A stretch of DNA of 44,518 nt from Mesorhizobium sp. (GTDB lineage Bacteria; Pseudomonadota; Alphaproteobacteria; Rhizobiales; Rhizobiaceae). Below the pieces are notes generated by a model, which did no database searches, was not told where the DNA came from, and was given only the letters and a program-made list of their open reading frames with translations. The position numbers and the translations under genes were made by a program. Every line of letters begins with the position of its first letter. The stretch's first letter is position 1. The stretch spans positions 1 to 44,518 of the forward strand of contig NZ_JAFKID010000037.1 in the NCBI RefSeq assembly GCF_017306545.1, in the 5' to 3' direction. This document shows positions 882-37,712 of the stretch, in pieces.

Positions 882-895
882 TTGACCGGCGTCAA
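882..895 (-). promoter_or_regulatory. FixK/FNR box upstream of cytochrome c
   Basis: TTGACCGGCGTCAA, a perfect palindrome of type TTGAC-N4-GTCAA. Its centre is about 63 bases from the cytochrome c start, which would place the transcription start near 847 if the usual -41.5 geometry of FNR/FixK class II activation holds. Confidence 0.75.
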
Positions 896-914
896 ATCGT
901 CATGCGCGGCACGG

Positions 915-1361
915 CTATTCCTTCGCCTCTCGCCCCGAGATTTGATCAATCGAGATACGGAAAAACACGTGCGACATTTCGTTCGAGATCGGTGGCAGAA
1001 GCGGCTTCAGCGCGCCCGGCTCCCACCAGTCGTTGTACTTGCTCAATATCGACCAGGCGTGGTCTCTGTCGCGCTTGTGGCCTATCTCGTCCGGCAATTC
1101 TTCGCACCTGCCGTCGACGACAACGCTCTTCCACTGCCGGTGTTTGCCGTGTTCTTCGACAACCACCGACACACATGGATTCGCCCGCATGAATTCGATC
1201 TTCTTGCCAAGCATCGAGAACATGAAGAGGTGGTTCTCGGCATGAACGAAATAGGCAGGCACGACGTAGGGCTGATTGTCTTTGGCGCAGGCGATTCTGC
1301 ACAGCCGGTTGCTATCCAACAGTTTCGTGCATTCTAGCGTCGTCATGGTTCTGATCAACAT
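915..1361 (-). CDS. Pyridoxamine 5'-phosphate oxidase-like (PNPOx) flavin-binding protein
   Basis: 148-residue protein of the split-barrel FMN-binding superfamily. The core reads as strand-rich segments around 'CRIACAKDNQPYVVPAYF' (residues 21-38), 'LFMFSMLGKKIEFMRANP' (45-62) and a 'W..V.V.G..EEL' strand (77-89), typical of the PNPOx-like group that binds FMN, F420 or haem. ATG at 1361 is preceded by AAGGAGG with 5-base spacing. It follows the phosphoribosyltransferase gene after 13 bp and is probably the last gene of that operon. Members of this superfamily recur in hypoxia and dormancy regulons, which fits the FixK context, but the substrate is unknown and true vitamin B6 oxidase activity is unlikely from sequence alone. 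Confidence 0.85.
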   Translation of the reverse strand: MLIRTMTTLECTKLLDSNRLCRIACAKDNQPYVVPAYFVHAENHLFMFSMLGKKIEFMRANPCVSVVVEEHGKHRQWKSVVVDGRCEELPDEIGHKRDRDHAWSILSKYNDWWEPGALKPLLPPISNEMSHVFFRISIDQISGREAKE

Positions 1362-1374
1362 GCCCGCCTCCTTT

Positions 1375-2091
1375 CTATCGCTTCTTTTTCGCGTCGGCTG
1401 TGTGGGGATTTTCCACAGCCGCTTTGCCTCGTTTGCTGGTCGCGGCGTCCCTGCCCTCTCGGCCGCGACCCAAGGCGGCGAGCACGTCCTCGTCGTCGAG
1501 CTGTTCGAAATTGCAATAGTAGTAGCCAAGCGCCCGAAAATGCGGCGGCTGCGCCAGGCACACGATACGATCCGCCTCCTGGCTGAGTTCTGCCACGGTC
1601 TCCGGCGGGGCAATCGGCAGCGCCACGACGATTGCTGTCGGCGATCGCCGTTTGAGTGCGCGTATGGCCACCTTCATCGAGGTGCCGGTTGCCGCGCCAT
1701 CGTCCACGAGAACCGCGGTTTTTCCGGCAATCGAAAGCGGCGCCCGGCTGCCTCGATAGAGGGTTCGTCGGCGTTGGAGCTCTGGCCGCTCGCGTTTCAC
1801 CAGCGTCGCCAGAGCCGCGTCGTCGAGATTGTAGGCTTCCACGATTTCTCGGTTGAGGACGACGTCCGGCGGATCGCCGTCGACAATCGCCGCCACCGCA
1901 AGTTCAGGATTGCCTGGAGCGCCCACCTTGCGGACGATGACCAGGTCGAGAGGCGCCTTCAGCACGGCCGCGACCTCGGCGGCCACGGGCACGCCGCCAC
2001 GCGGCAGAGCAAGGACGACGGGTGCGTGAAGCGATAGCCCGGCGAGTTCGTTCGCGAGCATCCGTCCTGCTTCCTGGCGATCGCGAAACAT
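1375..2091 (-). CDS. Phosphoribosyltransferase-family protein
   Basis: 238-residue type I phosphoribosyltransferase fold. The PRPP-binding loop is VLVDDGAATGTSM (about residues 127-139), preceded by the N-terminal 'LALPRGGVPVAAEVA' segment (28-42). These stand-alone PRTases carry no recognisable nucleobase hood, so the acceptor is unknown. The C-terminal 30 residues are charged and low-complexity and look dispensable. It starts 3 bp after the DUF2267 gene ends, so the two are surely cotranscribed, and a PNPOx-like gene follows. PRTase-domain proteins are also found in stress and dormancy gene sets in actinobacteria; here the upstream FixK box at 2623-2636 suggests oxygen control. Confidence 0.9.
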   Translation of the reverse strand: MFRDRQEAGRMLANELAGLSLHAPVVLALPRGGVPVAAEVAAVLKAPLDLVIVRKVGAPGNPELAVAAIVDGDPPDVVLNREIVEAYNLDDAALATLVKRERPELQRRRTLYRGSRAPLSIAGKTAVLVDDGAATGTSMKVAIRALKRRSPTAIVVALPIAPPETVAELSQEADRIVCLAQPPHFRALGYYYCNFEQLDDEDVLAALGRGREGRDAATSKRGKAAVENPHTADAKKKR

Positions 2092-2094
2092 GAC

Positions 2095-2523
2095 TCAGTC
2101 CGCCGGCCAAAGCTGCCGGAGCGCTTTTCTCATCGAGTTGCGAACCTGATCGATCTCTCCGGCCGAGATATGGCGATCGAGAAGATGAAAAACAGCCCCG
2201 ATGGCACGATCGAAATCAACCTCCGCTTCGAAGCCGAATTCCCGTCTCACGGCTATGATGAAATCGTCCTTGCGACGTTCGTGGCCAAGGCCGTTGAGAG
2301 GACGCCAGCCTTCGAAAAACACGCCGCGGATCAGGGTAGGCAATTGCGCCGCCAGATCGCTCATTTCTTCCGGCGGAAACCAATCACGGAGCGCGTGCAA
2401 GACCGCCTTCAGCAGCCGATAGGCGCGCGGGACATCCCAGTCCAACTCGCCGGCGACTTCATTGGCCCAATGTTGCGCCTGTTGTGCTGCCTGCGAAAAG
2501 TTCGAGATCGTGGTTTTGGTCAC
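2095..2523 (-). CDS. DUF2267 family protein
   Basis: 142 residues, all-helical, matching DUF2267 in length and layout: a central 'DWDVPRAYRLLKAVLHALRD' (about 29-48), 'LAAQLPTLIRGVFFEGW' (57-73), then a C-terminal region ending in a helix of basic residues. Its function is unknown; the family is frequent beside Hsp20, universal stress and PRTase genes. Start GTG at 2523 is chosen because GGAGGAG lies 8 bases upstream; an in-frame extension to 2577 lacks a comparable site. It is first of a tight operon with the phosphoribosyltransferase gene (3 bp gap). A FixK box 100-113 bases upstream of the start would give a leader of about 65 bases. Confidence 0.88.
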   Translation of the reverse strand: MTKTTISNFSQAAQQAQHWANEVAGELDWDVPRAYRLLKAVLHALRDWFPPEEMSDLAAQLPTLIRGVFFEGWRPLNGLGHERRKDDFIIAVRREFGFEAEVDFDRAIGAVFHLLDRHISAGEIDQVRNSMRKALRQLWPAD

Positions 2524-2741
2524 GGCTGCGGCTCCTCCTTGGGCTCGATTTGCCGCACGTCCGGTCGTTTCGACCAAGGTAGCGGCAGGTGAATAACGAA
2601 GGTCAACTCTCTGAGCACCGCGTTGACCCGGATCAAAGCTCGAATTCTCTCATGTCGGCTCATGATAGATCCTTGTCCGTGGCTCAATCGATCCTCAGCC
2701 GCTGCTAGCTCAGCTCTTTCTTCGAGCCGGTACTCTTCCAT
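2520..2741 (-). CDS. Small hypothetical protein (uncertain)
   Basis: 73-residue ORF, charged and probably helical at its start (EEYRLEERAELAAAEDRL), loosely resembling small rhizobial proteins with 'AERHIAEGE.RI.RQR' repeats. It overlaps the preceding small gene by 37 bp and the DUF2267 gene by 4 bp. The ATG at 2741 has no clear ribosome site. The segment LIRVN is encoded by the FixK box at 2623-2636, so either the box sits inside a real gene or this ORF is an open reading frame by chance over a promoter. I favour a decayed or marginal gene. Confidence 0.35.
   Translation of the reverse strand: MEEYRLEERAELAAAEDRLSHGQGSIMSRHERIRALIRVNAVLRELTFVIHLPLPWSKRPDVRQIEPKEEPQP
2623..2636 (-). promoter_or_regulatory. 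FixK/FNR box, candidate promoter of DUF2267-PRTase-PNPOx operon
   Basis: TTGACCCGGATCAA (TTGAC-N4-ATCAA). Centre 106 bases upstream of the DUF2267 start; a -41.5 geometry predicts transcription from about 2588. It lies inside the marginal ORF at 2520-2741. Confidence 0.6.
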
Positions 2742-2971: not shown

Positions 2972-3619
2972 TCATGCAGCCATATCCTGGAGCGTCTGCA
3001 ACTTGACGATCTCCACGCTCCGCAGGCTTGGCAACCGGATGACTCCCTTGCTTTTCAGCTTCGAAAAGACCCGCGACACGGTTTCGATCGTCAGACCGAG
3101 ATAGTCGGCGATATCCAATCGTGACATCGGAAGCTCGACCTGACGCAGACCGCCTTGACGTTCGGACATCTCAAGGAAGAAAGCCGCGACGCGTTCCACG
3201 GCATTCTGGCGACCCAGCACCAGAAGTTGCTCCTGCGCACGCACGAGGCTTTGAAGCGCCATGGGCAGGAGTTCGGCTACGACGTGGGCAGCCGAAGGGC
3301 TGAGGACGCGAATGCCGGTGCCGCAGATTGCCTCGGCGAAGAAGTGATGGCTCTTGTCGACTTCGAAACCGAACATCTCGCCGGCCAGGTGAAATGCCGA
3401 TATCTGACGTCGGCCATCCGACAAAAGACGGTAGATGCGGACGGCGCCGAATTCCACCTGGTAGAGGTTTCCGCACGTCTCGCCCTGGGCGTAAATTTCC
3501 GAGCCTGCCGGGAAGAATGTGGCGGGATGACCGCTTCCCAGCGGCGTGTTGGATTCGTTGCGCTCGAGCAGGATGCTGCCTAGCTGATGGGAATAGCGCG
3601 ATTGCTCAAAGTTCGTCAT
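2972..3619 (-). CDS. fixK: Crp/Fnr-family transcription regulator, FixK type
   Basis: 215 residues: N-terminal cyclic-nucleotide-like beta-barrel (about 30-115), long dimer helix (115-150) and a winged helix with the recognition helix in SRLDIADYLGLTIETVSRVF (166-185). Glu179, Ser182 and Arg183 form the E--SR signature that reads TTGA-N6-TCAA half sites. There is no N-terminal cysteine cluster, only Cys49 and Cys99, so it is not an iron-sulfur FNR and is better called FixK, activated through its own transcription. Start ATG 3619 has GAGGGA 6 bases upstream; the longer frame to 3655 lacks a ribosome site. A FixJ-box candidate lies at 3687-3705. The abundance of matching boxes around this locus makes it the probable local activator. 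Confidence 0.9.
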   Translation of the reverse strand: MTNFEQSRYSHQLGSILLERNESNTPLGSGHPATFFPAGSEIYAQGETCGNLYQVEFGAVRIYRLLSDGRRQISAFHLAGEMFGFEVDKSHHFFAEAICGTGIRVLSPSAAHVVAELLPMALQSLVRAQEQLLVLGRQNAVERVAAFFLEMSERQGGLRQVELPMSRLDIADYLGLTIETVSRVFSKLKSKGVIRLPSLRSVEIVKLQTLQDMAA

Positions 3620-3686: not shown

Positions 3687-3705
3687 CCGTACGGGTTTCT
3701 ACGTA
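3687..3705 (-). promoter_or_regulatory. Candidate FixJ-binding site in the fixK promoter
   Basis: On the minus strand the sequence is TACGTAGAAACCCGTACGG, two GTA/TAC-type half sites around a AAACCC centre, 68-86 bases upstream of the fixK start. Spacing and composition recall FixJ sites described in rhizobial fixK promoters, but I match it from memory and not by a matrix. Confidence 0.5.
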
Positions 3706-3711
3706 TCAGGG

Positions 3712-4053
3712 TCAGGACTTACCGACGATCGCGTCTTGAACAGCCTGCAGGAGCGGTTCGCCGAGAAACGGTTTTGCCAGGCATCTCGCATAGGGCACTT
3801 CCTGCGGCGAGCGGTATTGGTCAATCAGCAGAATGACGGGATGCCTGAAGCTCGCGAACAGGCCCTGCGCGTATTGCCAATCATGAATGGCGTCATCGTC
3901 GACAACCGCGCAACCGACATGTTGAGCTTGTGGCGATCCGAACGCTGGACCAAGGGCGTCGTAAGACAATACCGCGACGCCGCTGCTTTCAAGCACGAAA
4001 GTGAGCGAGTGCCTGAAAGCCACGTCCGGGGTCACGACGATTACTTGAGCCAT
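3712..4053 (-). CDS. Single-domain response-regulator receiver protein, FixT-like candidate
   Basis: 113 residues, only a CheY-like receiver and no output domain. It has the hydrophobic strand VIVVTPD (Asp10, but only one acid of the usual pair), a possible phosphoacceptor in CAVVDDDAIHD (Asp52/53) and the KPF lysine (Lys94). The acidic pocket is therefore degenerate. It sits between fixK and fixJ on the same strand, and a degenerate FixK box lies at 4124-4137. In Sinorhizobium and Caulobacter, FixT is a receiver-only protein, controlled by FixK, that inhibits FixL; position and size fit, and Cys48 and Cys91 are notable because Caulobacter FixT binds an Fe-S cluster. Start 4053 is chosen from the box spacing; the ribosome site is poor and a GTG at 4104 is an alternative. 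Confidence 0.75.
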   Translation of the reverse strand: MAQVIVVTPDVAFRHSLTFVLESSGVAVLSYDALGPAFGSPQAQHVGCAVVDDDAIHDWQYAQGLFASFRHPVILLIDQYRSPQEVPYARCLAKPFLGEPLLQAVQDAIVGKS

Positions 4054-4123: not shown

Positions 4124-4137
4124 TTGCTGTGGATCAA
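4124..4137 (-). promoter_or_regulatory. Degenerate FixK box upstream of receiver gene
   Basis: Minus strand TTGATCCACAGCAA: first half site perfect, second half AGCAA instead of [AG]TCAA. With -41.5 geometry transcription would start near 4089, giving a 36-base leader to the ATG at 4053. Confidence 0.4.
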
Positions 4138-4168: not shown

Positions 4169-4786
4169 TTATGAAGACAGGCCCATCGCTATGCTCATGC
4201 GAACCAGCTCAGGCAGGTTCCTCGCTTGCATCTTCGACATGATATTGGCGCGATGAACCTCGACCGTGCGAGGGCTGATGCCGAGATCGAAACCGATGGT
4301 CTTGTTGGGCAGTCCCGCCACGACGGCGGACAACACCTGGCGCTCGCGCTCCGAAAGGCTGTCGAGCCTTGCACGCAGCGTTGCCGTGTCCACTATCGCT
4401 GCCGGGCTTTCTTCCAGCTGGCTTGCGGCTCGCTTGATCGCCTCGACCAGCGCTTCGTCTTCGAACGGCTTTTCTATGAAATCGAGGGCGCCGGCCTTCA
4501 TCGCTGCAACTGCCATCGGAACGTCCCCATGGCCCGTGATGACCACGGCGGGGATCGAGGCGCCTGTTGCCTTCAGTTTTTCCAGCAGTTCCACGCCGCT
4601 CATGTCGGGCATCCTCAAATCCGTGATAAGGCAGGCCTTGCCGACGGTCTTTGCCGCGGCAAGGAAGCTGCTTGCGGAATCGTGCACCCGAACCGTGAAG
4701 CCCGTCATGGTCAGGAGGAAGGCCAGCGATTTGCGAACTGGCTCTTCGTCGTCGACGATGTGGACCACGTAATTGTCAATCTGCAT
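4169..4786 (-). CDS. fixJ: Response regulator FixJ
   Basis: 205 residues. The receiver has [13 protein letters not shown] near the N-terminus (acid pocket at 12-14), phosphoacceptor Asp56 in [23 protein letters not shown] and the EKPFED lysine. The C-terminal LuxR-type helix-turn-helix has [18 protein letters not shown] and [14 protein letters not shown]. Wording and length are very close to Sinorhizobium FixJ. Phospho-FixJ activates fixK. ATG 4786 has AAAGGAGG upstream and lies 8 bases inside the end of fixL, so translation is coupled to the kinase. Confidence 0.96.
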
Positions 4787-6281
4787 CCGACACCTCCTTT
4801 CCCGCCAGCGGGAGCGTAAACCTGAACGTCGCCCCGCCGCTGTTGTTTCGACTGGCCGAGATTTCGCCGCCATGCGCTTCGATGATCCGCCTGGAGATGG
4901 AAAGCCCGATCCCCATACCACTCGCCTTGCTGGTGACGAAAGGCTGGAACAGGCGCGCCGCCACCTCTTCGGAGATACCCGGGCCGGTATCAGCAACCTC
5001 GACCACGACATCGCCGTCTTCAATGATCGTGCGGACGACCAGTTCGCGTTTCTCGCTTTCGCGCATGGCTTCTATTGCATTGCGCATCAGATTGATCAGC
5101 ACCTGTTGGATCTGGACGCGGTCGACAAGGATATCAGCGCCCTTCGGCGCAAAGTCGAATACGGAGCGAATCCCCAACTCACGCGATCCGACGAGCGCGA
5201 GAGCGCCGGCTTCTTCGATAAGCTTGCGCATGGTCTCCCGGGTAACATCCGTTTCGCCGCGCGTGACGAATTCCCTCAGATGCCGGATTATCCCGCCTGC
5301 GCGCAGCGACTGCTTCGTCGTCTCCTGGAGAGCGCCCCGAATGCGATCGGCGGCGGCGTCGTCCAGGCTGTTGAGGAAGTGGACACAGCCTTGTGCGTAG
5401 TTAGCAATGGCGGCAAGAGGCTGGTTCAGTTCATGCGCCAGCGTCGAGGCCATCTCTCCGAGTTCGCTGAGGCGGGCAAGCCTTGCGAGCTCGCTCTGGA
5501 TTTGCTGCAAACGGGCCGCGGACTCCTCGCGCTCGGTCAGATCCCGGATGAATCCAGTGAAGAACCGCCCGCTTGCCGATCTCATCTCGCCAACGGCCAG
5601 TTTCATGGGAAAGGTGGACCCGTCCTTCCTGCGGCCAACCACGACGCGGTCGATACCGATGATCCGCTTCTCGCCGGTCGCAATATATCGCTGAATATAG
5701 CCGTCATGCTCGCTGCCATAAGGCTCGGGCATCAGGATGTTAACGTTGCGGCCAAGCACCTCGGCTTCCGTATAACCGAATTGTCGGACGGCAGCCGCGC
5801 TAAAGGAAGTGATAAACCCTTCTTCGTCTATCACCACGGTCGCGTCGGGCACCGTATCCAGGATCGAACGCAAATGATCCTGTTGAGCTCTGAGCGTTTC
5901 TTCGGTTTTGTCGAGGGCGCGACGCGCATGATGGAGCATTTCCCCCATCCAGGCGATGGCAAGTCCGACTACGGCAAAGACCGAACTTTGCACCCAGGAA
6001 GAGGCATCGGAACCCGCGAGGTAAAGCGCGCCCAGAAGGGAGAGGACGAGGGCAAAAAGCCCGGGACCGATGCCACTCGCGATAGCCGCAAGAAGAATGG
6101 CAGGAACGAAGAATATGAAGGTTATGGCACCGCCCAGGACGCCCTGTAAGGACAACCGAACGACAAACATTGCAGTCACGGCTCCCGCAGCGAGCAAATA
6201 ACCGACACGCCCCTCGAATCGGGCCGAGAAAACCGCCTGCAGGAAGCGGCCTTGTAAGCCGCGGATGTCTCTTGCCGGCAC
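4776..6281 (-). CDS. fixL: Oxygen-sensing histidine kinase FixL
   Basis: 501-residue membrane kinase. Several N-terminal membrane segments (roughly residues 25-115) are followed by a PAS domain (about 135-250), then dimerisation and ATPase domains. The haem-binding proximal His192 is in [10 protein letters not shown] and the oxygen-switch Arg212 in GIDRVV; the phosphorylated His283 is in [15 protein letters not shown] and G boxes ([20 protein letters not shown]) follow. These are each two residues from Sinorhizobium FixL (His194, Arg214, His285), which supports the GTG start at 6281, preceded by GAGGAG with 7-base spacing. Oxygen bound to haem should inhibit the kinase. It overlaps fixJ by 11 bp. 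Confidence 0.96.
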
Positions 6282-6630
6282 CGGAACGCTCCTCGTCACA
6301 TCGCCTCGAAAGGAGGTTATCACAAGGTCGTGATTTGTCGGAGCGGAGTCACCACTGAGACATGTGAACTCGACCAAAGAAGTATGCGCGCGCTTGGAAG
6401 AGAAAGGAAGGAAACCACCATGTGTTTCATGACGGTACCGAGATCCGGTAGGTTTGTCGGTTCTTCGATCTTACGCCTGCTCCTGTCTTCCTTTCCAGAT
6501 GTGGCGCGCCTTGGCGCCTTTGTTCCACATCGGGTTGGTACGTTCTTTGAGCGAACGCAAGGACCCGCGAATTGGCTGACACGATATCACCGGCGTGCTG
6601 TCAGCGGCACGCCGGTGTTCGCATGAACGG
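6282..6630. other. Intergenic region between hsp20 and fixL (349 bp)
   Basis: Holds the presumed fixL promoter and the hsp20 stem-loop at 6588-6617. No intact FixK box is seen; TTGAGCGAACGCAA at 6547-6560 keeps only part of the pattern. A plus-strand ORF of 68 codons (6420-6626) has a GGAAGG site upstream of its ATG, but it has no recognisable features and runs over the stem-loop, so I do not call it a gene. Confidence 0.5.
6588..6617 (-). terminator. Stem-loop downstream of hsp20
   Basis: Perfect 11-bp inverted repeat CACCGGCGTGC / GCACGCCGGTG with an 8-base loop, beginning 14 bases after the hsp20 stop. There is no T-run, so it is either a weak terminator or an mRNA-stabilising hairpin. 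Confidence 0.6.
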
Positions 6631-7155
6631 TCAAGCCGCCTTGACCGCAATCGTCTTCTCGCCCTTCTTCGCCTCGGCCGTCTTGGGCAGCTTCACCGTC
6701 AGGACGCCCTTCGCGAAGTTTGCGTCGATCCTGTCGGCCTCGACACCCTCGGGGAGCTGGAAGCTGCGCTGGAAAGACCCGTAGCGACGTTCGGACAGGT
6801 AGTAGTCCTTTCGCTTGTCCTCCTTTTCCTCGCTCTTCTCGCCCTTGATCGTCAGGGTGTGATTGGAAAGCTTGATCTGGACGTTCTTGTCGCTCAGCCC
6901 CGGCAACTCCGCCGTGATCTCGTAAGCGTCGTCCGTCTCGATGAGATCCATCGCAGGCGCGATCTGCCATTCCGAGCGGGCGATGCGCGGGACCTCAAAG
7001 CCCAGAACTTTCGACGGAAGACGCCAGTCGAACGGACGGAAATCGTCGAACAGCCGGTCGATCTCCCGGCGCAGGCTCTCGAACGGCGCCCAGTCCTCGG
7101 ATTTCGCGGGTGCAGTGGATTTCTTGACGGGCAGTTTGGTGGCAGCCTCGGCCAT
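6631..7155 (-). CDS. Small heat-shock protein, Hsp20/alpha-crystallin family
   Basis: 174-residue ATP-independent holdase chaperone. A variable N-terminus with RLFDDF is followed by the alpha-crystallin domain (about 65-165), including DAYEITAELPGL, HTLTIKGEK and the diagnostic GVLTVKLPK. The start ATG at 7155 has GAAGGAGA upstream. The same reading frame remains open for another 1.7 kb upstream, over the divergent exporter gene, but has no protein-like content there. A FixK box at 7394-7407 faces this gene over a long leader. Placement beside fixLJ suggests induction at low oxygen. Confidence 0.94.
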   Translation of the reverse strand: MAEAATKLPVKKSTAPAKSEDWAPFESLRREIDRLFDDFRPFDWRLPSKVLGFEVPRIARSEWQIAPAMDLIETDDAYEITAELPGLSDKNVQIKLSNHTLTIKGEKSEEKEDKRKDYYLSERRYGSFQRSFQLPEGVEADRIDANFAKGVLTVKLPKTAEAKKGEKTIAVKAA

Positions 7156-7393: not shown

Positions 7394-7407
7394 TTGACGC
7401 GGATCAA
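7394..7407. promoter_or_regulatory. FixK/FNR box (hsp20 side)
   Basis: TTGACGCGGATCAA, TTGAC-N4-ATCAA, both half sites intact. It is the closer box to hsp20. Confidence 0.65.
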
Positions 7408-7536: not shown

Positions 7537-7550
7537 TTGACGCTGATCAA
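7537..7550. promoter_or_regulatory. FixK/FNR box (exporter side)
   Basis: TTGACGCTGATCAA, both half sites intact; closer to the plus-strand exporter operon starting at 7774. Confidence 0.65.
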
Positions 7551-29713: not shown

Positions 29714-31045
29714 TCATTTGCCGGGGATGAATCTGGCTTCGAAGCCGTCCTGACGCCCTTCGCGCGGAGAGACCAGTTCTATCCGCCCACCGATGCCCGA
29801 AGCGATCGCCTTGGCGATGGCGAGCCCGAGGCCGGCGCCTTCCCCCTGCGCGCCGCCTCGCTCGAAAGGCTCGGCCAGGCGGGCAAGCATGTCCGCCGGG
29901 ACTGCGCTTCCCGCGTTGAAGACCCGCAGCACGCCGTCCGCCGACAAGGCGACACGCACCGGCTCGTGCCGCGAGCCATGCTTCAGCGCATTCTCGATGA
30001 GATTCCGCGCCAGGATCGCAAATGCGTCGGCGTCGATGTCTGAGAACACCGGAGCGTCAGCCAGAACCAGCTCGATCCGCTTCGGATCGTCCATCGTCAT
30101 CTCATCGACCAGCACTCGCAACACGGTCGCTACGTTCACCGGCTGGGCCGCCTGAAGCCGCCCCCCTTCGGCCCGTGCAAGCTGCATCAGTTTCTCCGAC
30201 AGCCTGGAAAGCCGTCGCAACGCCGTCTCGATGTGCCGCGCCCTTCTGCGGGTGGCCTCGTTCGGCGCCTCGGCGATCAGGCGCTGCGTCTGCGCCAGCG
30301 CCGCAGCGACTGGCGTACGCAGTTCGTGCGCGGAATTGGCCGTAAAGCTTCGCTCTGCTTCCAGCGTGCGCCTGAGCCGCTCCAGCAAGTGGTTTACCGC
30401 CATTGCTATCGGCCGGATTTCGGATGGCAGGCCATCGGCCGCGACCGCCGTCAGGTCACCGCCGCCGCGGGCCTCTATACCCGAACGGAAGGTCCTTATA
30501 GGCGCCATTGAAAGTCGCACGACCGCCCAGACGCCGAGCAGGCTGAGAGGGATGACCAGGCCGAGCGGCAGTGCCAGGCCGAGCAGAACCTCCTCGGCCA
30601 CCGCGCGCCGGTGGACGAGGGGCTCGGCCACGGCGATCGTCACCGTACCGCGCAACGCGGCGTCGAAATAGATTCGGTGGGTCGAGGTATCGGCGAAGCC
30701 CGTGCCGGCGAAAGGCGGAAAGACGGCCAGATCGGCATTGTGTGATCGCAACAGGACCTTGCCCTCGGAATCCCTCACGACGTAGGTGAAATATTCGTCG
30801 TGCCGGCGCAGCGTAGCCACGCTCTGCTCCGCATCGTCGTCGCCATCATGATCGCGGCCGATGATGTCGAGAACGGCCAACGGCAGGATGCGTTGCGCCG
30901 TTTCCTCCAGTGCGCTGTCGAACACCTCGTTCATCTCGTGGCGCAGCTTGTGCGCCGTCACCGTGGCCGCAACCACCCACAGCAGCGCCACCCCCAACCC
31001 GAGCCACAGCGAAAGCCGCCATTGCAGACTTCTGGGCAGCATCAT
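29714..31045 (-). CDS. Sensor histidine kinase (OmpR/EnvZ-type system)
   Basis: 443 residues: membrane helix 1 (about 12-31), periplasmic sensor of about 120 residues rich in Asp and His (HDGDDDAEQ), membrane helix 2 (about 155-178), HAMP linker, and kinase core with His240 in SFTANSAHELRTP, N box LARNLIENALKHG and G box GAGLGLAIAKAIAS. Layout matches QseC/PhoQ-like kinases. It overlaps the response-regulator gene by 4 bp. The acidic periplasmic segment could bind divalent cations, as inference only. Confidence 0.93.
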   Translation of the reverse strand: MMLPRSLQWRLSLWLGLGVALLWVVAATVTAHKLRHEMNEVFDSALEETAQRILPLAVLDIIGRDHDGDDDAEQSVATLRRHDEYFTYVVRDSEGKVLLRSHNADLAVFPPFAGTGFADTSTHRIYFDAALRGTVTIAVAEPLVHRRAVAEEVLLGLALPLGLVIPLSLLGVWAVVRLSMAPIRTFRSGIEARGGGDLTAVAADGLPSEIRPIAMAVNHLLERLRRTLEAERSFTANSAHELRTPVAAALAQTQRLIAEAPNEATRRRARHIETALRRLSRLSEKLMQLARAEGGRLQAAQPVNVATVLRVLVDEMTMDDPKRIELVLADAPVFSDIDADAFAILARNLIENALKHGSRHEPVRVALSADGVLRVFNAGSAVPADMLARLAEPFERGGAQGEGAGLGLAIAKAIASGIGGRIELVSPREGRQDGFEARFIPGK

Positions 31046-31704
31046 CTGGCATTTCCAAGCCGGTATCCGATACCGCGCACGGTATCGATCACTGAATGTC
31101 CCAGCTTCTTGCGCAGGCGACTGACATGGACCTCGATCGTGTTGCTTTCCACCTCGGCGCCGAAGGCATAGAGCCGCTCCTCAAGCTGCACCTTGGACAT
31201 GATTTGGCCGGGGCGCTGGACGAAGGCCTCGAACAGCGCCCATTCGCGCGCAGTCAGATCGATCGGCCGGCCGCCGCGCGCGACAGTCCTGGCCGCGAGA
31301 TCGATCTGCAGGTCGCCGATCTCGACGAGCGGGTTCGGATTGCCGCTGTAGCGCCGTGCCACGGCGTTCAGCCGTGCCGAAAGCTCCGATAGGTCGAAGG
31401 GCTTGGTCATGTAGTCGTCCGCCCCGGCGTTGAGCCCCTGGATACGATCGGAGATCTGGTCCAGCGCCGTCAGGATGATGACCGGCGTAGCGCAGCCCTT
31501 CATGCGCATGCTGCGCAAAAAGCTGATGCCCCGCCCGTCCGGGAGCATCATGTCCAAGAGGATAAGGTCGTAAGCCGCACTCTCGAGGTAGGTTGTCGCA
31601 GCGTCGAGTCGCGTCACCCAGTCGACCGAATGGCTTGACGCGACGATGTGGTCACGCACGGCCGCGCCCAGGATCGAGTCGTCTTCCACCAGCAGGATTC
31701 TCAT
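31042..31704 (-). CDS. OmpR-family response regulator
   Basis: 220 residues. Receiver: acid pocket VEDD at 6-9, phosphoacceptor Asp51 in LLLDMMLPDGRG, switch Thr in ILTALDQ, lysine in MTKPFD. Output: winged helix with LTAREWALFEAF and the recognition helix NTIEVHVSRLRKKLG. ATG 31704 is chosen because the receiver begins there; in-frame extension to 31878 has no domain content. It is first of an operon with the kinase and divergent from a PepSY gene, its probable target. Confidence 0.94.
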   Translation of the reverse strand: MRILLVEDDSILGAAVRDHIVASSHSVDWVTRLDAATTYLESAAYDLILLDMMLPDGRGISFLRSMRMKGCATPVIILTALDQISDRIQGLNAGADDYMTKPFDLSELSARLNAVARRYSGNPNPLVEIGDLQIDLAARTVARGGRPIDLTAREWALFEAFVQRPGQIMSKVQLEERLYAFGAEVESNTIEVHVSRLRKKLGHSVIDTVRGIGYRLGNAR

Positions 31705-31749
31705 GAAGGGACCGTCCTGTTCCTTACCGTGCGATTGCCATCGAATCCT

Positions 31750-31763
31750 GTCAGCAAGCTGAC
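31750..31763. promoter_or_regulatory. Palindrome in the response-regulator / PepSY divergent promoter
   Basis: GTCAGC-AA-GCTGAC, a perfect 6-bp inverted repeat about 46 bases upstream of the regulator gene and 85 bases upstream of the PepSY gene. It could be an operator for the OmpR-type regulator, although those usually bind direct repeats. Confidence 0.3.
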
Positions 31764-31847
31764 GGGTATGTCCACTCAGCTTCAGGTGTTCGTCAGGCAA
31801 GACTGCCATGGTCACCGCGACCGAACGTCGAGCAAGGACAAACAAAT

Positions 31848-32237
31848 ATGAGGAAGCATACACTGGCAGCGGCTGCATTTCTCGTATTTGCCGGATCGGG
31901 CGCCGCGATGGCCGACGACGACTGCCACCTTCCGATGGACCAGTGGCAGCCGCGCGCGGCTGTGCAGAAGATGGCCGAAGCCCGCGGCTGGACCGTCCGC
32001 AGGATCAGGGCCGACGACGGCTGCTACCAGATCAGTGGCACCGACGAGAATGGCCGCGGCCTTAAGGTCAAAGTGGATCCCGGCTCGCTGGAGATCGTCA
32101 AGATGAAGCGAGAAGGGCAGGATGAAGACGATGACGACAATGGCTCCAGCCGATTGCAGGCGGCGCCCGCCGGAATGGTCGCGCCGCCTTCCAACGGACT
32201 CTTCGGCAAGGGCGCCCCGAAAGCCGAAGTGAAATGA
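31848..32237 (+). CDS. PepSY-domain periplasmic protein
   Basis: 129 residues with a signal peptide (cleavage after about AMA, residue 22), a single PepSY domain (about 28-85: 'AAVQKMAEARGWTVRRIRADDGCYQISG.. KVKVDPGSLEIV') and a disordered tail. Two cysteines (Cys26 and Cys59) may form a disulfide. Genes of this kind are usual targets of the adjacent OmpR-type system. AAGGAC lies 8 bases before the ATG. It precedes a cytochrome b561 by 49 bp and probably is cotranscribed with it. Confidence 0.88.
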   Translation: MRKHTLAAAAFLVFAGSGAAMADDDCHLPMDQWQPRAAVQKMAEARGWTVRRIRADDGCYQISGTDENGRGLKVKVDPGSLEIVKMKREGQDEDDDDNGSSRLQAAPAGMVAPPSNGLFGKGAPKAEVK

Positions 32238-32286
32238 CGAGCCGTCTCACCCCAGTCACGACGACGAATTTCCAAAGGTGAACAAG

Positions 32287-32823
32287 ATGCAGGAAGAACG
32301 CGTGAGAACCCGCAATTCCGCCCGCTATTCGAAAAGCATGATCGTCATCCACTGGGTGACCGCTCTGGCCGTGCTGGGCGCGTGGCTGACCTCGGAAGGT
32401 GGCCGGAACATAGCCGAAGATCCGCCGCTGCTGCATTTCTCGCTTGGGCTGGCGGTGCTCGTGCTGGTCGTGCCCCGCCTGATCCTGCGCCTCGCGGGTG
32501 GAGCGCCCGACGTGGAACCCCAGGGCGGCTGGCTTGGCGCGACCGCCAGGGCCGGCCATGCGGTGCTCTACCTGTTCCTGATCGCCCTGCCTCTGACCGG
32601 CTGGTACGCCGCTTCGCGCATGGGCGTGCCCGTATCATTTTTTGGCCTGCACCTGCCGGCCATCGCCGAGCAGGTCCAGGGCCAGCCGGGCCTGATCGCC
32701 GATCTCCATGAAAATGGCGGCACCGTGATCCTCTATCTCGCCGGCCTGCATGCCCTGATGGCGATCTGGCACCAGTTCGTCCTGCGCGACGGAACGCTCC
32801 AGCGCATGATGAGTCCGCGCTGA
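32287..32823 (+). CDS. Cytochrome b561
   Basis: 178-residue membrane protein with four hydrophobic helices. Histidines in helix positions 'SMIVIHWVTAL', 'LLHFSLGLAVL', 'AGHAVLYLFLI' and 'LAGLHALMAIWHQF' are the expected axial ligands of two b haems. It passes electrons between quinol and periplasmic acceptors. ATG 32287 has AAGGTG 6 bases upstream and is preferred to GTG 32278. It follows the PepSY gene in a likely two-gene operon. Confidence 0.92.
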   Translation: MQEERVRTRNSARYSKSMIVIHWVTALAVLGAWLTSEGGRNIAEDPPLLHFSLGLAVLVLVVPRLILRLAGGAPDVEPQGGWLGATARAGHAVLYLFLIALPLTGWYAASRMGVPVSFFGLHLPAIAEQVQGQPGLIADLHENGGTVILYLAGLHALMAIWHQFVLRDGTLQRMMSPR

Positions 32824-32866
32824 GGTTTTTTCTCACGCCAAGTGGCTTCCTCCGCTTGTCCACGGC

Positions 32867-32892
32867 CCCGGCGCGACAAGGCTCGCGCCGGG
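32867..32892. terminator. Bidirectional terminator-like stem-loop between cytochrome b561 and apbE
   Basis: Perfect 9-bp inverted repeat CCCGGCGCG / CGCGCCGGG with an 8-base loop, placed between two convergent genes. No long T-run follows on the plus strand. Confidence 0.6.
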
Positions 32893-32902
32893 TCTCAATG
32901 CG

Positions 32903-33871
32903 TCAGGCTGCGTAGGATTCCTCGAAAACCTCACCGACCGCGACTTGGCTAAGGGTATCATCCGACCTTAGGATGAACAGCGCATCCAGACCGTTGCGCC
33001 GGGCCAGTTCTCGCCCTTCTCCCTGCCCCAGGACTAGAAGCGCCGTCGCCCATGCATCGGCTTCCATGCAAGCTGGGCAAATAACGGAAACCGACGCAAC
33101 ATCATTGATCACCGGCCCACCGCTCGCCCGATCCATCGTATGGGAAAGGCGGCTCCGCCCGATCTCGATCCAGTGCCGGTAATCGCCCGAAGTCGCGATG
33201 GCTGCATTGTGCAACGCAACTGCGCCGAACGGCGCGCGCATGTCGTAGTCCGGCTTTTCCACGGCGACGATCCATGGCGCTCCGTCCGGCTTGGTGCCTG
33301 TCGCCTTCAGCTCGCCGTCCAAGGCGACGAGGGCACTGTCGATACCGAAATCCCGCATAACTTCCGCCATCGCATCCACGGCAAAGCCCTTGGCGATGCC
33401 CGACAGGTCGAGCGTCACCGGCGCGTGCTTGCGCGCCCGGCTGCCCGAAGGGTCCAGCTCCAGCACCTCATGGGCAGGCGGCCGCCCTTTGCCGACCCAG
33501 CGCCGGACGGCCTCCTCGTCTGGTGCCTTGCCGGAAGGACCGAAGCCCCAAGCATTCACCAGGTCTCCCAGGCCGATGTCGAAGGCTCCGGCCGAAGCCC
33601 TGCCGATCTCAATGCCCTTTTCGAGCACGAGCATCAATTCGGCAGGCATCGCAACCCATTTTCCCGGCGCCGCCGCGTTCAGGCGCATGAGGTCACTGTC
33701 GGGCTTCCATGTCGACATCTGGCGGTCGATGTCGGCCACAGCGCGGGCGAGCGCAGCTTCCGGCGCGACCAGCCCGAAGGTTTCGGGGGCATAGAGCAGC
33801 ACCGACCACCTCGTGCCCATAACGGGACCGCTCAGGGTGCGGCGAACCGGTTCAGTAGACGTCTTCGACAT
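32903..33871 (-). CDS. apbE: FAD:protein FMN transferase (ApbE family)
   Basis: 322 residues. Key ApbE features: PVMGTRWSVLLY near the N-terminus, 'DIGLGDLVNAWGFGP' (about 98-112), 'LDLSGIAKGFAVDAM' (about 153-167) and the C-terminal 'ADAWATALLVLG'. The enzyme uses FAD and Mg2+ to attach FMN covalently to a Thr or Ser of redox partners. I see no lipobox, so it may be cytoplasmic, or exported by a partner. Its start overlaps the end of the PepSY-flavoreductase gene by 20 bp, so the two are functionally linked. Confidence 0.92.
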   Translation of the reverse strand: MSKTSTEPVRRTLSGPVMGTRWSVLLYAPETFGLVAPEAALARAVADIDRQMSTWKPDSDLMRLNAAAPGKWVAMPAELMLVLEKGIEIGRASAGAFDIGLGDLVNAWGFGPSGKAPDEEAVRRWVGKGRPPAHEVLELDPSGSRARKHAPVTLDLSGIAKGFAVDAMAEVMRDFGIDSALVALDGELKATGTKPDGAPWIVAVEKPDYDMRAPFGAVALHNAAIATSGDYRHWIEIGRSRLSHTMDRASGGPVINDVASVSVICPACMEADAWATALLVLGQGEGRELARRNGLDALFILRSDDTLSQVAVGEVFEESYAA

Positions 33872-36056
33872 ATTTTCCCTGCGCCTTGAGGGCCTGTGGT
33901 GTCAGGCCAAGAGGTGAAATCACCTGCGCGAGCGCCTCCATGACGCCGGCCGCCATCTCACGGCCGCCGCACACCATGATTTGGGCGCCGCCGGCAATCA
34001 GAGTGCGCAGGCACTCGGCGTCCTCACGCAGCAGGTCCTGCACGTAGCCACCGCCCGCGATGCGCGAGAAGATAGCGCTGATGCAGGTAAGCCGCCCGTC
34101 GCCCAGCCAGCCCGCGATCGCATCCCGGTAGAGGAAATCGGATGCCGGATGGCGTCCACCGAAATACAGGTGCATGGGGCGGGCCTTTCCGTTCGCCCGG
34201 ATGAAGCCCGCCAAAGGGCCTATTCCAGTGCCGGCGCCAACCAGGATGACCGGCATGCGACCGGGCAAAGGGCGGAAACCGGAATTGCGCCTGACGAAGG
34301 CCCGGATGCCGTCGCCCGGACGAAGGGCGTGGAGCAAGGTCGAACAGGCGCCGCCGGGCTGTTTGCGCACGCAGATTTCGACGGCTCCGTCGCAGCTCGA
34401 GCTCGCCAGCGAATAGTATCGCGGGGTCATACAGCCGGGCGCTACGACGCCGAGCAGGTCGCCCGCCGCGAACCGGGGCCAGGCGCGCCCGGAAAGACGG
34501 GCCATCAGCCCCGCGTTCGGCATGGAAAAGCGCAGGATGGCGGTGGGCGCCTGCACGTCCGCGCCGTAGTCGACACGCTCGATCAGCGTCAGTGTCTGCG
34601 TGCGCGGAACCTCCGCTACATGCGCCAGCCTGATGGTCTTGCCCATGACGGCGGACAAAACCTCTCCCCAGCGGGAGAATTCCTGCGCGGACTGGCGGTC
34701 GATCGCCGCGAGCGGCATCAGCCGCTTCCAGCCCTTGCTGCGCAAGGCCCTCTCCACGTCGCGGGCGAACCGGCAGAACGCCGGGAACTGCCGGTCGCCG
34801 AAGCCGAGAACAGCCACCGGGAAATGCGGGGGCTCCATCCGATCGATCCGTCTCAGGAAGGAATCGGCGCCGGCAGGCGCCTCGCCGTCGCCGTAGGTCG
34901 CCGCAAGCACGAACATGCGCCTGGCGGCGGGGTAGCGGGCGGCTATGTCGTTCATGGGTGCGGTGTGGACATGGTGGCCGAGGGCGGCGAGCGCCTCGTG
35001 TAGAGTGCGGGCGAAGCCCCAGGTGCTGCCGCTTTCGCTGCCCACCAGGATCACCGTATCCGCCGCCGCCGACGCGGCGTTGCGGGCGATGCGGACGCGG
35101 CCCCGGCGTTGACTCCACCAGATCGCTGTTCCAGCGCCGCCGAGCACGGGCACGCCGAGGGCGCTGGCGCCCAACAGCAGCCCGAGCCACCACAAGCCCT
35201 GGCCGGTGTGAATCATGTAAATGAACTCATAGATCTGCCTGGCGGCGCCGCTGTCCTGCCAAGCCAGCATCTGTCCCGTCGCCGGATCGACAAACCCCTC
35301 TCCCGTCGCAGTGCTGAGTTCATACACATCGGACGGGATGGATCGATCGGGAAAGGTGAGTTCGCGAAGCTGGCCAAGGTCGATATCCTGCAATGCCGCG
35401 AGCCGGTCAGCCGGCAGTGCCGGCCCGGCACCCGCCGCGACCTGCAAGACAGGAGCGGCCTGCGAGCTACCGTCAGGGACCAGTCCGAACGTGGCAAGCG
35501 ACATGTAGAGCGCCGTCACGGTGGACAAAAAAACGCCGAGAGCGGTCAGCTTCCCGAGGCCGATGTGCAGCCGTTGTGCGCCGGTGCCGCGGGCGCGGCC
35601 GAGCATGCGCCGCCAGCCGCCCGCGCGCCGGGCGGTCATTTGCAAGCCCGACAGGGTCAGCAGCAAAAGGGCCAGCGCACCGATCGCCCCAGTCGCGCGG
35701 CCGCCATCGCCAAGAAAGAGCGACCGGTGCAGGTTCTTCACCCAGCGTTCGACCGCCGAAGGCGCGACTTCACCGATGGCCCGGCCGGAAGCGGGATCGA
35801 TCACGCTGGAAACGGCGCGGCCGTTCTCCAGGTAGGAGGCGACGATCCCGCCCGAAGGCGAACGCACGATCTGTTCGACATCCGGATAGGCTCTTTCGAT
35901 CCGACCGGCGACCTCGGCGACGCTGAGCCGGCCGGAAGCGGCGACCGTTCCGGCCCTTTCCAGCGCGGGCAGGACCGACAGATACGTCCCACTGAGCGCC
36001 AGGATGGTGATCAAGATCGCGGCGAAGAGGCCGAGAAGCCTGTGAAACAGACGCAT
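33852..36056 (-). CDS. PepSY-TM / flavodoxin / CysJ-like reductase fusion
   Basis: 734 residues. The N-terminal part (about 1-320) is a PepSY_TM membrane domain with four helices and a periplasmic PepSY repeat. A flavodoxin-like FMN domain follows (about 335-475, starting ILVGSESGSTWGFART), then an FAD/NADP reductase domain (about 485-734) with the FAD motif RYYSLASSS and nucleotide motif VGAGTGIGPL. It should carry electrons from cytoplasmic NADPH across the membrane to a periplasmic acceptor, possibly ferric iron or a flavinylated partner made by the adjacent ApbE. Overlap with apbE and a 24-bp gap from the DUF2271 gene indicate one operon. Confidence 0.92.
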   Translation of the reverse strand: MRLFHRLLGLFAAILITILALSGTYLSVLPALERAGTVAASGRLSVAEVAGRIERAYPDVEQIVRSPSGGIVASYLENGRAVSSVIDPASGRAIGEVAPSAVERWVKNLHRSLFLGDGGRATGAIGALALLLLTLSGLQMTARRAGGWRRMLGRARGTGAQRLHIGLGKLTALGVFLSTVTALYMSLATFGLVPDGSSQAAPVLQVAAGAGPALPADRLAALQDIDLGQLRELTFPDRSIPSDVYELSTATGEGFVDPATGQMLAWQDSGAARQIYEFIYMIHTGQGLWWLGLLLGASALGVPVLGGAGTAIWWSQRRGRVRIARNAASAAADTVILVGSESGSTWGFARTLHEALAALGHHVHTAPMNDIAARYPAARRMFVLAATYGDGEAPAGADSFLRRIDRMEPPHFPVAVLGFGDRQFPAFCRFARDVERALRSKGWKRLMPLAAIDRQSAQEFSRWGEVLSAVMGKTIRLAHVAEVPRTQTLTLIERVDYGADVQAPTAILRFSMPNAGLMARLSGRAWPRFAAGDLLGVVAPGCMTPRYYSLASSSCDGAVEICVRKQPGGACSTLLHALRPGDGIRAFVRRNSGFRPLPGRMPVILVGAGTGIGPLAGFIRANGKARPMHLYFGGRHPASDFLYRDAIAGWLGDGRLTCISAIFSRIAGGGYVQDLLREDAECLRTLIAGGAQIMVCGGREMAAGVMEALAQVISPLGLTPQALKAQGKYVEDVY

Positions 36057-36080
36057 CTTGCAGACCCGAACCGGCCGGGC

Positions 36081-36551
36081 CTACATGTCGTAGGTGAAGG
36101 CGCTGATATAGCGCCGACCGGCCACAGGTTTCCCCGCCCCGCCGGACGTGAGCGGAGCCACCACGTCGGAGGGGCTGTCGCGCATATCTTCGGCAGCCGC
36201 GTCCACATGAATTTCATAGCCGGCGTCGAAGAGGGCATCGGCGAGGTCGAGGGAAATCTTCAAGGAGCGTCCGGAGCCGACACTCGCGCCGGTGATGCCG
36301 TTGATCTCGCCAAGGTTCCCGCCCGATCCCCGCAGCCAGCCGCCGAGGTGGCGGTAGTATTTCGACCTGCCGCCGGCCATCCAAAGCGTGCCCTTGTAGG
36401 CTCCCGCCGCATCGGTGACATAGAGCGCCAGATAGGCGCCGTTGCCGCCATAATCATTGAGGGTCGTGGTCAGTGTGACCGGACGAGCCAACGCCAGCGC
36501 GGGGAAAGTCAGCGCCGTAGTCAGGGCCAGCACGGCGACAAGCGATTTCAT
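36081..36551 (-). CDS. DUF2271 periplasmic protein
   Basis: 156 residues with a signal peptide (cleavage near ALA, residue 22) and the DUF2271 core, including 'KYYRHLGGWLRG' and 'NGITGASVGSGRSLKI'. The TGAS segment is notable: in FMN-binding proteins ApbE modifies a Thr within a SGATS-type motif, so 'ITGASVGSG' could be a flavinylation site, as inference. ATG 36551 has GGAG 7 bases upstream. It is first gene of the PepSY-flavoreductase / ApbE operon. Confidence 0.86.
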   Translation of the reverse strand: MKSLVAVLALTTALTFPALALARPVTLTTTLNDYGGNGAYLALYVTDAAGAYKGTLWMAGGRSKYYRHLGGWLRGSGGNLGEINGITGASVGSGRSLKISLDLADALFDAGYEIHVDAAAEDMRDSPSDVVAPLTSGGAGKPVAGRRYISAFTYDM

Positions 36552-36732
36552 CGGCAAACTCCGCAGCGGATTTTCACTGCGCCGAAGCTGCCGGCTCAGT
36601 CTGACGCATTCCTGAAGAGGCGGGAAAAAGCTCTTAAGGTGGCCGTCAGCTTGAAACGTCACAGGCATTACAGATAGGATTTCGCCGCTCCCGATCCGTA
36701 ACGTCGGACGTCCGCATTGTTCAAAGCATTTG

Positions 36733-36760
36733 CCCTGCCGTTATCGCAAGCTTGGCAGGG
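36733..36760 (+). other. Stem-loop upstream of the VIT/CCC1 gene
   Basis: CCCTGCC / GGCAGGG, 7-bp stem with a 14-base loop, about 90 bases before the transporter start. It lies in the 296-bp divergent gap 36552-36847 in which I see no other clear signal. A leader regulatory hairpin is possible but unproven. Confidence 0.25.
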
Positions 36761-36847
36761 GCAGCAGCCATTCCCGGAAGTCCGTTTTCGCTTCATCATC
36801 CCGGAAGCCTGCAACCGCGAGCAAAACCTGCAAGGAGACGTCGCGTC

Positions 36848-37546
36848 GTGCCCCCGCATATGCATCCGGAGAACCATCTCGTAAAACGTATCGGCTGGCT
36901 GCGCGCCGCCATATTGGGCGCCAATGACGGGATCGTCTCGACTGCAAGCCTGATCGTGGGCGTCGCGGCTGCTTCATCCTCGACATCCGAGGTCCTTGTC
37001 GCCGGTATCGCCGGGCTGGTTGCCGGCGCGATGTCGATGGCCGCCGGCGAGTATGTTTCGGTCAGTTCCCAATCCGATACGGAACAGGCCGATCTCGCGC
37101 GCGAACGGGCAGAGCTTGCCAGTCAGCCGGATTTCGAACGCGATGAACTCGCACAGATCTACATGCAACGCGGCCTTGATTCTAAACTCGCGTATGAGGT
37201 CGCGGATCAACTCATGGCCAAGGACGCGCTCGGCGCTCACGCACGCGATGAACTCGGCATGTCCGAGGTGACGGCGGCGCGGCCGATCCAGGCCGCAATC
37301 ACATCGGCGGCGACGTTCGCTACCGGAGCGGCCTTGCCCCTGCTCACGGCTCTTCTCCTGCCGCGCTCCATCCTCATCCTCGGCGTATCCGTCGCTTCCC
37401 TTTTCTTCCTTGCCCTGCTCGGCGCGATCGGAGCACAGGCCGGCGGCGCGAACATAGGCAAGGCAACGGTGCGGGTGACCTTCTGGGGCGCGATAGCAAT
37501 GGCGCTGACGGCAGGAATCGGGGCGGTCTTCGGAACAGCGGTCTGA
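36848..37546 (+). CDS. VIT1/CCC1-family iron/manganese transporter
   Basis: 232 residues. The N-terminal signature 'WLRAAILGANDGIVSTASLIVGVAAA' (about 17-42) and 'GAMSMAAGEYVSVSSQSDTE' (about 60-79) are characteristic of the VIT family, followed by a charged cytoplasmic segment with repeated Glu/Asp and three C-terminal membrane helices (from about 152). It moves Fe2+ or Mn2+ out of the cytoplasm. GTG 36848 has GGAGA 10 bases upstream; ATG 36860 is an alternative start. Placement beside the PepSY-flavoreductase cluster points to metal homeostasis. Confidence 0.9.
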   Translation: MPPHMHPENHLVKRIGWLRAAILGANDGIVSTASLIVGVAAASSSTSEVLVAGIAGLVAGAMSMAAGEYVSVSSQSDTEQADLARERAELASQPDFERDELAQIYMQRGLDSKLAYEVADQLMAKDALGAHARDELGMSEVTAARPIQAAITSAATFATGAALPLLTALLLPRSILILGVSVASLFFLALLGAIGAQAGGANIGKATVRVTFWGAIAMALTAGIGAVFGTAV

Positions 37547-37698
37547 CGACCCGCAATTTTTGCAAGACTATCTGCCGACATGGCCGAAGGGTCCGCCATC
37601 ACGCGGCGGGGCCGCACAGGCATATCCTGATCCCAACCGGTGCCTTTTGACGCAAGGGAATCCAACACGGCCTCGCGACGGCATAGTACGGGTGACAA

Positions 37699-37712
37699 TT
37701 GATTCAGATCAA
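37699..37712 (+). promoter_or_regulatory. FixK/FNR box upstream of the second cytochrome c
   Basis: TTGATTCAGATCAA, a perfect TTGAT-N4-ATCAA palindrome. Predicted transcription start near 37747, 19 bases before the ATG. The arrangement mirrors that of the paralogue at 421-825. Confidence 0.8.

Follow-up and report, generated by a model that had tools for sequence, protein, structure and literature searches.

Clustered FixK boxes beside fixLJ and fixK suggest a low-oxygen regulon, probably acquired by transfer, in a Mesorhizobium genome

Which genes would a FixLJ-FixK oxygen-response system control in a genome without a nifH match over the cut-off, and why should its targets lie beside it? The locus that raises these questions is a 44,518-nucleotide stretch of Mesorhizobium sp. 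(assembly GCF_017306545.1, contig NZ_JAFKID010000037.1, positions 1 to 44,518), here called the window in its full length. We conclude, with a probability of about 0.87, that the window contains a FixLJ-FixK regulon for low oxygen, its target genes closely grouped next to the regulators. A first reading made from the letters alone (the sequence-only reading) had suggested a physically clustered low-oxygen regulon, and this is supported by box enrichment, -10 geometry and a FixK2-like recognition helix. The boxes, their enrichment, their geometry, the conservation of their half sites and most gene identities are observed in the DNA itself.

The exact box, TTGANNNNNNTCAA, occurs at 882, 2623, 7394, 7537, 13496, 15167, 17432, 23889 and 37699, and these are its only occurrences in the window; the sequence-only reading had located all nine intact 14-bp sites correctly. 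First-order Markov simulations (n = 100) gave a mean of 0.33 sites and a maximum of 2, and among 240 palindromic patterns, the box included, it ranked first with 9 sites (runner-up 4, mean 0.27). When the spacer between TTGA and TCAA was varied from 0 to 19, a spacer of 6 returned 9 sites and every other spacer 0 or 1. The whole genome (4,818,058 bases, 66 contigs) contains 53 exact boxes, against 15 for a backwards-read control. From the rest of the genome 0.41 boxes would be expected in the window, which is ~22-fold denser (Poisson P 6e-10), so that the enrichment over genome background on which the earlier claim depended was indeed found. Its description of the regulon as local holds in that boxes cluster in the window, but 44 of the 53 lie outside it and the cluster is about twice the window's size.

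The published FixK2 box is TTG(A/C)-N6-(T/G)CAA (PMC9104804). The window boxes match this consensus and, to judge from their spacing, would sit at about -41.5; 14 sites fit it in the window, where 2.32 are expected. Site 4124, previously called degenerate, does have one mismatch (TTGC) to the exact box but fits the published consensus, and for that reason need not be so termed. The site at 12759 is probably an eleventh box of the window. Three further candidates were rejected: 6547 (TTGAGCGAACGCAA) agrees with the relaxed consensus but is not retained in Root552, and 14260 and 16395, which also agree with it, lie inside the APH-AAA and MgtC open reading frames (ORFs) and were taken as chance. 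The boxes are:

882..895, minus strand: FixK box TTGACCGGCGTCAA, CATGCT 21 nucleotides (nt) downstream toward the cytochrome gene
2623..2636, minus strand: FixK box TTGACCCGGATCAA, upstream of the DUF2267 gene
4124..4137, minus strand: box TTGCTGTGGATCAA, within the FixK2 consensus, centred 77.5 bp ahead of the fixT-like start
7394..7407, minus strand: FixK box TTGACGCGGATCAA, taken to serve hsp20
7537..7550, plus strand: FixK box TTGACGCTGATCAA, taken to serve hlyD-rbbA
12759..12772, plus strand: probable box TTGATCCCGCGCAA, within the FixK2 consensus, centred 66 bp ahead of 12832
13496..13509, plus strand: FixK box TTGACCGAGATCAA, TAGTTT 21 nt downstream
15167..15180, plus strand: FixK box TTGATCCCTGTCAA, exact match
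17432..17445, plus strand: FixK box TTGAGCCGGATCAA, ACAATA 22 nt downstream
23889..23902, plus strand: FixK box TTGACGTCGATCAA, exact match
37699..37712, plus strand: FixK box TTGATTCAGATCAA, exact match

In class II geometry, a box centred at -41.5 places the -10 hexamer 22 nt downstream. We read the nine exact boxes and site 4124 toward their likely genes; in 9 of the 10, two or all three of the key -10 bases (T1, A2, T6) are present 21-22 nt downstream. In a scan of offsets 3-69 the overlapping offsets 20 and 22 gave 5/10 and 6/10, and none outside 20-22 exceeded 4/10. The peak recurs in a pool of 103 boxes from this genome (the window and contigs C38, C2, C32, C33 and C35), nine same-genus genomes, Root552 and the pSymA replicon of S. 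meliloti 1021, read in both directions, with boxes near locus ends left out and near-duplicates kept in: the full T-A-n-n-n-T was present in 10 boxes at offset 21 and in 9 at offset 22, whereas the mean over all offsets was 1.08 and no other count exceeded 4. With a -10-like hexamer peak at this distance from a box at -41.5, class II activation is the natural reading, in keeping with the earlier suggestion that the spacing fits activation from that position. For 8 of the 10 boxes, the box centre lies 48.5-115.5 bp from the likely start codon.

The half sites are also preserved between divergent copies. In six alignable box pairs, four with Root552 and two with a second copy of the locus on contig C32 of the same genome, 48 of 48 half-site bases are identical, the flanks being 70-83% identical. 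Box 2623 is identical in the second copy (flanks 70%), and box 23889 has an exact counterpart at C32:6080 before the same gene, where the flanks are not alignable. The TTGC...TCAA site at 4124 is kept in all three relatives (the second copy, Root552 and M. composti), and 12759 in Root552 and M. composti. Box clustering extends to other members of the genus: in nine of 36 searched same-genus genomes, picked for their long contigs, the 40 kb round fixK hold 51 boxes where 3.8 are expected (9 x 40 kb). Each genome is enriched singly (P 0.006 to 2e-14) and gene content differs, which points to box clustering round fixK as common in the genus, with members exchanged. One same-genus genome has five separate FixK matches at 69-74% identity, four of which start within four bases of a contig start; it is perhaps another multi-copy genome.

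The regulators themselves occupy the following positions:

2972..3619, minus strand: FixK, CRP/FNR family, two cysteines, recognition helix I-E-T-V-S-R
3699..3706, minus strand: candidate FixJ site ATACGTAG, one mismatch to GTAMGTAG, 80 bp upstream of fixK
3712..4053, minus strand: FixT-like protein (NCBIfam FixT 5.5e-4; tblastn to pSymA 4e-11)
4169..4786, minus strand: FixJ response regulator, receiver and LuxR helix-turn-helix (HTH) by Pfam, 67% to pSymA FixJ
4776..6377, minus strand: FixL haem-PAS histidine kinase, from profile matches and PAS alignment, start codon provisional

FixK matches PF13545, PF00325 and PF00027 above cut-off, giving a CRP-type HTH and a cyclic-nucleotide-binding fold. 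FixK proteins are recognised by an incomplete set of the four FNR [4Fe-4S] cysteines (PMC2908626), and this protein has two cysteines only, C49 and C99. Its best PDB match is FixK2 4i2o (E 1.7e-40), with a near-identical recognition helix (IETVSR versus LETVSR); the E--SR recognition residues reported by the sequence-only reading are thus present in the translation. Its placing of fixLJ next to fixK was also right, with fixL and fixJ adjacent and the FixT-like gene lying between fixJ and fixK. The FixL PAS domain aligns with FixL 1d06 over nearly its whole length and keeps EHDGY, the histidine of which we take to be the haem ligand. The FixT-like protein is 37% identical to a pSymA relative at the same place; FixT is a receiver-like, single-domain inhibitor of FixL, a role that is putative for this protein. 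Its two cysteines do not make the 4-Cys motif of Caulobacter FixT, a motif described as unique to Caulobacter (PMC7078487). The FixJ-like octamer before fixK, compared with the consensus GTAMGTAG (PMC4999443), is exact in Root552 (GTACGTAG) and reads CTACGTAG in the C32 copy, with the core TACGTAG in all four sequences; the window has 19 one-mismatch octamers, the candidate is weak alone, and we regard it as suggestive only.

From this arrangement we infer FixK binding, oxygen dependence, the direction of control and a physiological role. At low oxygen the haem-PAS kinase FixL would phosphorylate FixJ, and phospho-FixJ would raise fixK transcription via the FixJ-like site 80 bp before the gene. 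FixK dimers would then occupy the TTGA-N6-TCAA boxes, whose centres would lie near -41.5, and switch on the adjoining operons in class II fashion. The conserved imperfect box at 4124, before the fixT-like gene, would fit negative feedback on FixL. The output would be survival under poor oxygen, by protein protection and electron disposal, and not nitrogen fixation, no nifH having been found over the cut-off in this genome; a wider island may add acetate metabolism and (by eye) nitrate respiration. The predicted targets are two small c cytochromes, Hsp20, the HlyD-RbbA transporter, thioredoxin, a flavin oxidoreductase, the APH/AAA protein, the LTXXQ protein and the DUF2267/phosphoribosyltransferase pair:

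421..831, minus strand: small c-type cytochrome (Pfam Cytochrom_C), start 825 or 831, box 882 centred 57.5-63.5 bp upstream
1375..2091, minus strand: phosphoribosyltransferase-family protein (Pfam PF00156)
2095..2523, minus strand: DUF2267 protein (Pfam PF10025)
6631..7155, minus strand: Hsp20 / alpha-crystallin (Pfam PF00011)
7774-8844, plus strand: HlyD adaptor (profile match)
8808-11591, plus strand: RbbA ribosome-associated ATPase/transporter (profile match)
11591-12703, plus strand: ABC-2 permease (profile match)
13618..15162, plus strand: APH-like and AAA_33 fusion protein (Pfam)
15222..15719, plus strand: thioredoxin with thioredoxin-2 type zinc ribbon (Pfam)
17501..18793, plus strand: FAD/NAD(P) oxidoreductase, Pyr_redox_2 (Pfam)
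23956..24501, plus strand: LTXXQ-motif protein (Pfam PF07813)
37772..38173, plus strand: small c-type cytochrome (Pfam)

The island extends beyond the window. M. composti CC-YTH430, a species described as without nod and nif genes and renamed Ollibium composti (PMC11057113), has the same region on one contig, with 18 of its 45 exact boxes in 77.5 kb (0.45 expected); a single FixK locus was detected in that strain. The left half of that island corresponds to contig C38 of our genome and the right half to the window. The ends of C38 and of the window contig both fall within the phosphoketolase gene, and on this ground the two are probably adjacent; together they hold 16 of the genome's 53 exact boxes. 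In the left half, acetate kinase and phosphoketolase are the sole two genes confirmed by Pfam, while translations read by eye suggest universal stress proteins (USPs), an amino-acid permease with ornithine carbamoyltransferase, nar genes, BON and radical SAM proteins. Outside the window, a COX1-family oxidase ORF on C35, by eye cbb3-type, has a canonical exact box 197 bp upstream and is a natural positive control.

The same genome appears to hold a second, shorter copy, about 84% identical, that we assemble from three contigs. C32 matches window positions 1-302 (92%), 895-6346 (85%) and 23945-24761 (78%); C33 matches 26763-27016, 29686-36666, 36790-37546 and 37826-37943 at 80-85%; and C2 aligns at 79-88% identity with the left half of the M. 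composti island. The second copy contains fixL-J-T-K. On C32 the LTXXQ gene directly follows fixL and the Hsp20-to-RND segment is absent, and most of the P-type ATPase stretch is missing from C33. Since C33 bears the genome's sole full-length match to its ilvD-like region, 85% identical to M. composti, this copy appears to be native and to lie on the chromosome.

The window, by comparison, matches M. composti at 97.7% identity across 38 kb, in an alignment that ends at 38326. Backbone identity, which rests on two regions, is 87% and 83% for pieces of the C57 oxidase region and the 85% just given for the ilvD-like region; two short C33 pieces further on are 77-78% identical. A third candidate yardstick, C45:17001-37000, was rejected, as nearly nothing of it matches in M. 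composti. C38:9770-29847 encodes a relaxase, a coupling protein and VirB4/6/8/10/11-type relatives. An island at 97.7% on a backbone at 83-87%, together with these conjugation genes, makes it probable that the island was acquired by horizontal transfer on a conjugative element, either a plasmid or an integrative and conjugative element. We give even odds to the fuller proposal that a complete regulon of ~80 kb (sensor, regulator, inhibitor, FixK and boxed targets) moves between species on such an element and now sits beside the host's ~84% identical, apparently chromosomal copy, so that two interchangeable FixLJ-T-K circuits share one box.

A rival to the mobility reading is that the window and C38 are contaminant contigs from a relative of M. 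composti rather than a second copy in one cell. Contamination would look just so, with a 38 kb block at 97.7% and two backbone regions at 83-87%, but we consider it unlikely: the contamination listed for the assembly is 0.07%; on C38 the island continues into ~47 kb of additional sequence with conjugation genes, and a search with 20 kb of that sequence (C38:20001-40000) found nothing matching in M. composti; and identity to M. composti varies along the block, being 81-94% in 200-base steps at about 4.2-7.8 kb and 90% at 8-9 kb. In 1-kb steps, window positions 4200-9000, which cover fixJ, fixL, hsp20 and hlyD, are 86-92% identical and the rest of the block 96-100%; this dip is a possible recombination tract.

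We next weigh what speaks against a FixLJ-FixK regulon. Both FixK (174.9 of 300 bits) and FixL (527.7 of 850) fall below their NCBIfam equivalog cut-offs, though each is the best match, and we take the FixK model, named for Caulobacter, to be narrow. The FixT-like protein reaches 19.9 of 150 bits against NCBIfam FixT and has no Pfam match. Four of the nine same-genus genomes have no FixL or FixJ seen within the 40 kb searched. The distance to the start codon is 245.5 bp for box 7394 and, counted from the ORF start, 230.5 bp for box 7537; nothing in the second copy aligns with boxes 882 and 37699; and the P-ATPase/ApbE/PepSY block (27032..36668) has no exact box inside it. The APH-AAA box appears in only 5 of 30 orthologous upstream regions, two of the five being the window and a near-identical genome, and one control pattern scored 7 in these regions. 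Boxes with at most one mismatch number 18 in the window against 9.62 expected, a count reached by 2 of 100 shuffles; this excess is modest, and the signal therefore resides in the intact sites.

FNR, DNR and FixK sites are moreover nearly identical (PMC2908626), and the boxes might be real but used by another CRP/FNR protein, with FixK as one of several users. We examined the best 6 of the 20 CRP/FNR matches listed for the genome (46.8 bits and up). Two are FixKs, the second, on C32, being 89% identical to that of the window, and the remaining four are distant or without E-x-x-S-R. The C40 protein retains the motif (EVVSR), but its scores are only 27.4 bits against the FixK model and 19 against Fnr. 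The C39 protein has FnrL as its best NCBIfam match, below cut-off at 76.6 of 300 bits, and an N-terminal C-x2-C, but is without E-x-x-S-R, as are the LHTVSR-type proteins on C33 and C35. The five sequences that we checked for C-x2-C-x5-C, those of window FixK and of the C33, C35, C39 and C40 proteins, all lack it, and boxes cluster round fixK in this genome and in all nine other same-genus genomes examined. Use by another family member is accordingly rather improbable; FixK and its paralogue are the best-fitting regulators, though not the sole conceivable ones. That the boxes are a functionless by-product of base composition or repeats, as one-mismatch sites no more than about twofold above shuffles might suggest, is very hard to square with the simulated mean of 0.33, the 22-fold genome excess, the -10 geometry and the half-site conservation.

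The remaining genes of the window are:

915..1613, minus strand: ORF with a pyridoxamine-phosphate-oxidase-like domain in its C-terminal part (Pfam PF12900), true start probably about 1358
12832..13371, plus strand: sigma-70 region 4-like protein (Pfam PF08281)
15727..16980, plus strand: MgtC/DUF4010 membrane protein (Pfam)
19095..23769, plus strand: RND adaptor, RND pump and DUF302 protein (Pfam)
24603-26063, plus strand: PLD-family protein (profile match)
26130-27014, plus strand: endo/exonuclease/phosphatase-like protein (profile match)
27032-29587, minus strand: P-type cation ATPase (profile match)
29714-31045, minus strand: histidine kinase (profile match)
31042-31878, minus strand: response regulator (profile match)
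31848-32237, plus strand: PepSY_2 (profile match)
32278-32823, plus strand: cytochrome b561 (profile match)
32903-33871, minus strand: ApbE (profile match)
33852-36056, minus strand: PepSY-flavodoxin reductase (profile match)
36081-36668, minus strand: DUF2271 (profile match)
36752..37546, plus strand: VIT-family transporter (Pfam PF01988)

Within 29714-36668, a kinase/regulator pair stands beside PepSY, ApbE, cytochrome b561 and DUF2271 genes; together they may form a periplasmic module for flavin electron transfer under regulation of its own. The right end (39338-44462) carries an IrrE/HTH protein, a transposase, a SocA-like (Panacea) protein and an IS66 set. Among the target genes, the APH-AAA_33 fusion has matches in 64 of 119 same-genus genomes (E<=0.001), some of them weak.

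Systems of this type are already known, as are islands of this kind in rhizobia; what is added here is the true size of the cluster, the fixT-like gene, additional sites, a second copy of the locus and its probable mobility. The S. meliloti 1021 replicon pSymA, which differs in being a symbiotic megaplasmid, has the same regulator order, fixL-fixJ-fixT-fixK, at 590-688 kb, with 21 exact boxes in 98 kb (a raw count). Relatives of island genes there include phosphoketolase (69%), acyl-CoA synthetase (63%), metal ATPase (55%), BON (53%) and Hsp20 (54% and 50%), as well as USPs, a quinone oxidoreductase, a CBS protein and an MgtC-like protein, several of these shared names being assigned by eye; a filtered tblastn of the 98 kb found no relatives of RbbA, APH-AAA, the RND pump, the FAD oxidoreductase or the LTXXQ protein. 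FixK targets have been predicted in S. meliloti (PMC3164228), and broad FnrN/FixK networks in Rhizobiales are described (PMC4999443). The FixLJ-FixK2 regulon of Bradyrhizobium diazoefficiens uses the same box consensus, and its FixK2-dependent genes include Hsp20, USP, phosphoketolase/acetate kinase, PNPOx-like with cytochrome c and an RND adaptor; locus numbers suggest several clusters, and FixK2 there has a regulatory Cys183 (PMC9104804). This likeness is drawn from description, the sequence comparison being the PDB match. Likened by description alone is the lxa locus of Burkholderia cenocepacia (BCAM0275-BCAM0323), a ~50-gene low-oxygen block with alpha-crystallin, a BON protein and USPs (PMC6127331) that, unlike the window, is betaproteobacterial. 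Transfer of a fixLJ-fixK cluster from Rhizobiales to Caulobacterales has been proposed (PMC4999443); that would be an old transfer of the regulator cluster, whereas the one suggested here is apparently recent and includes some 80 kb of targets. A literature search, with most subscription papers outside its coverage and hence no proof of absence, found no title on a transferable FixLJ-K target island.

A FixLJ-K regulon that keeps regulator and targets together in a genome without nifH over the cut-off most likely serves persistence in oxygen-poor conditions rather than symbiosis. If the transfer reading is true, joint mobility would be part of the reason for the clustering of regulator and targets, and the strain would offer a naturally occurring test case for two oxygen-circuit copies that share one regulon.

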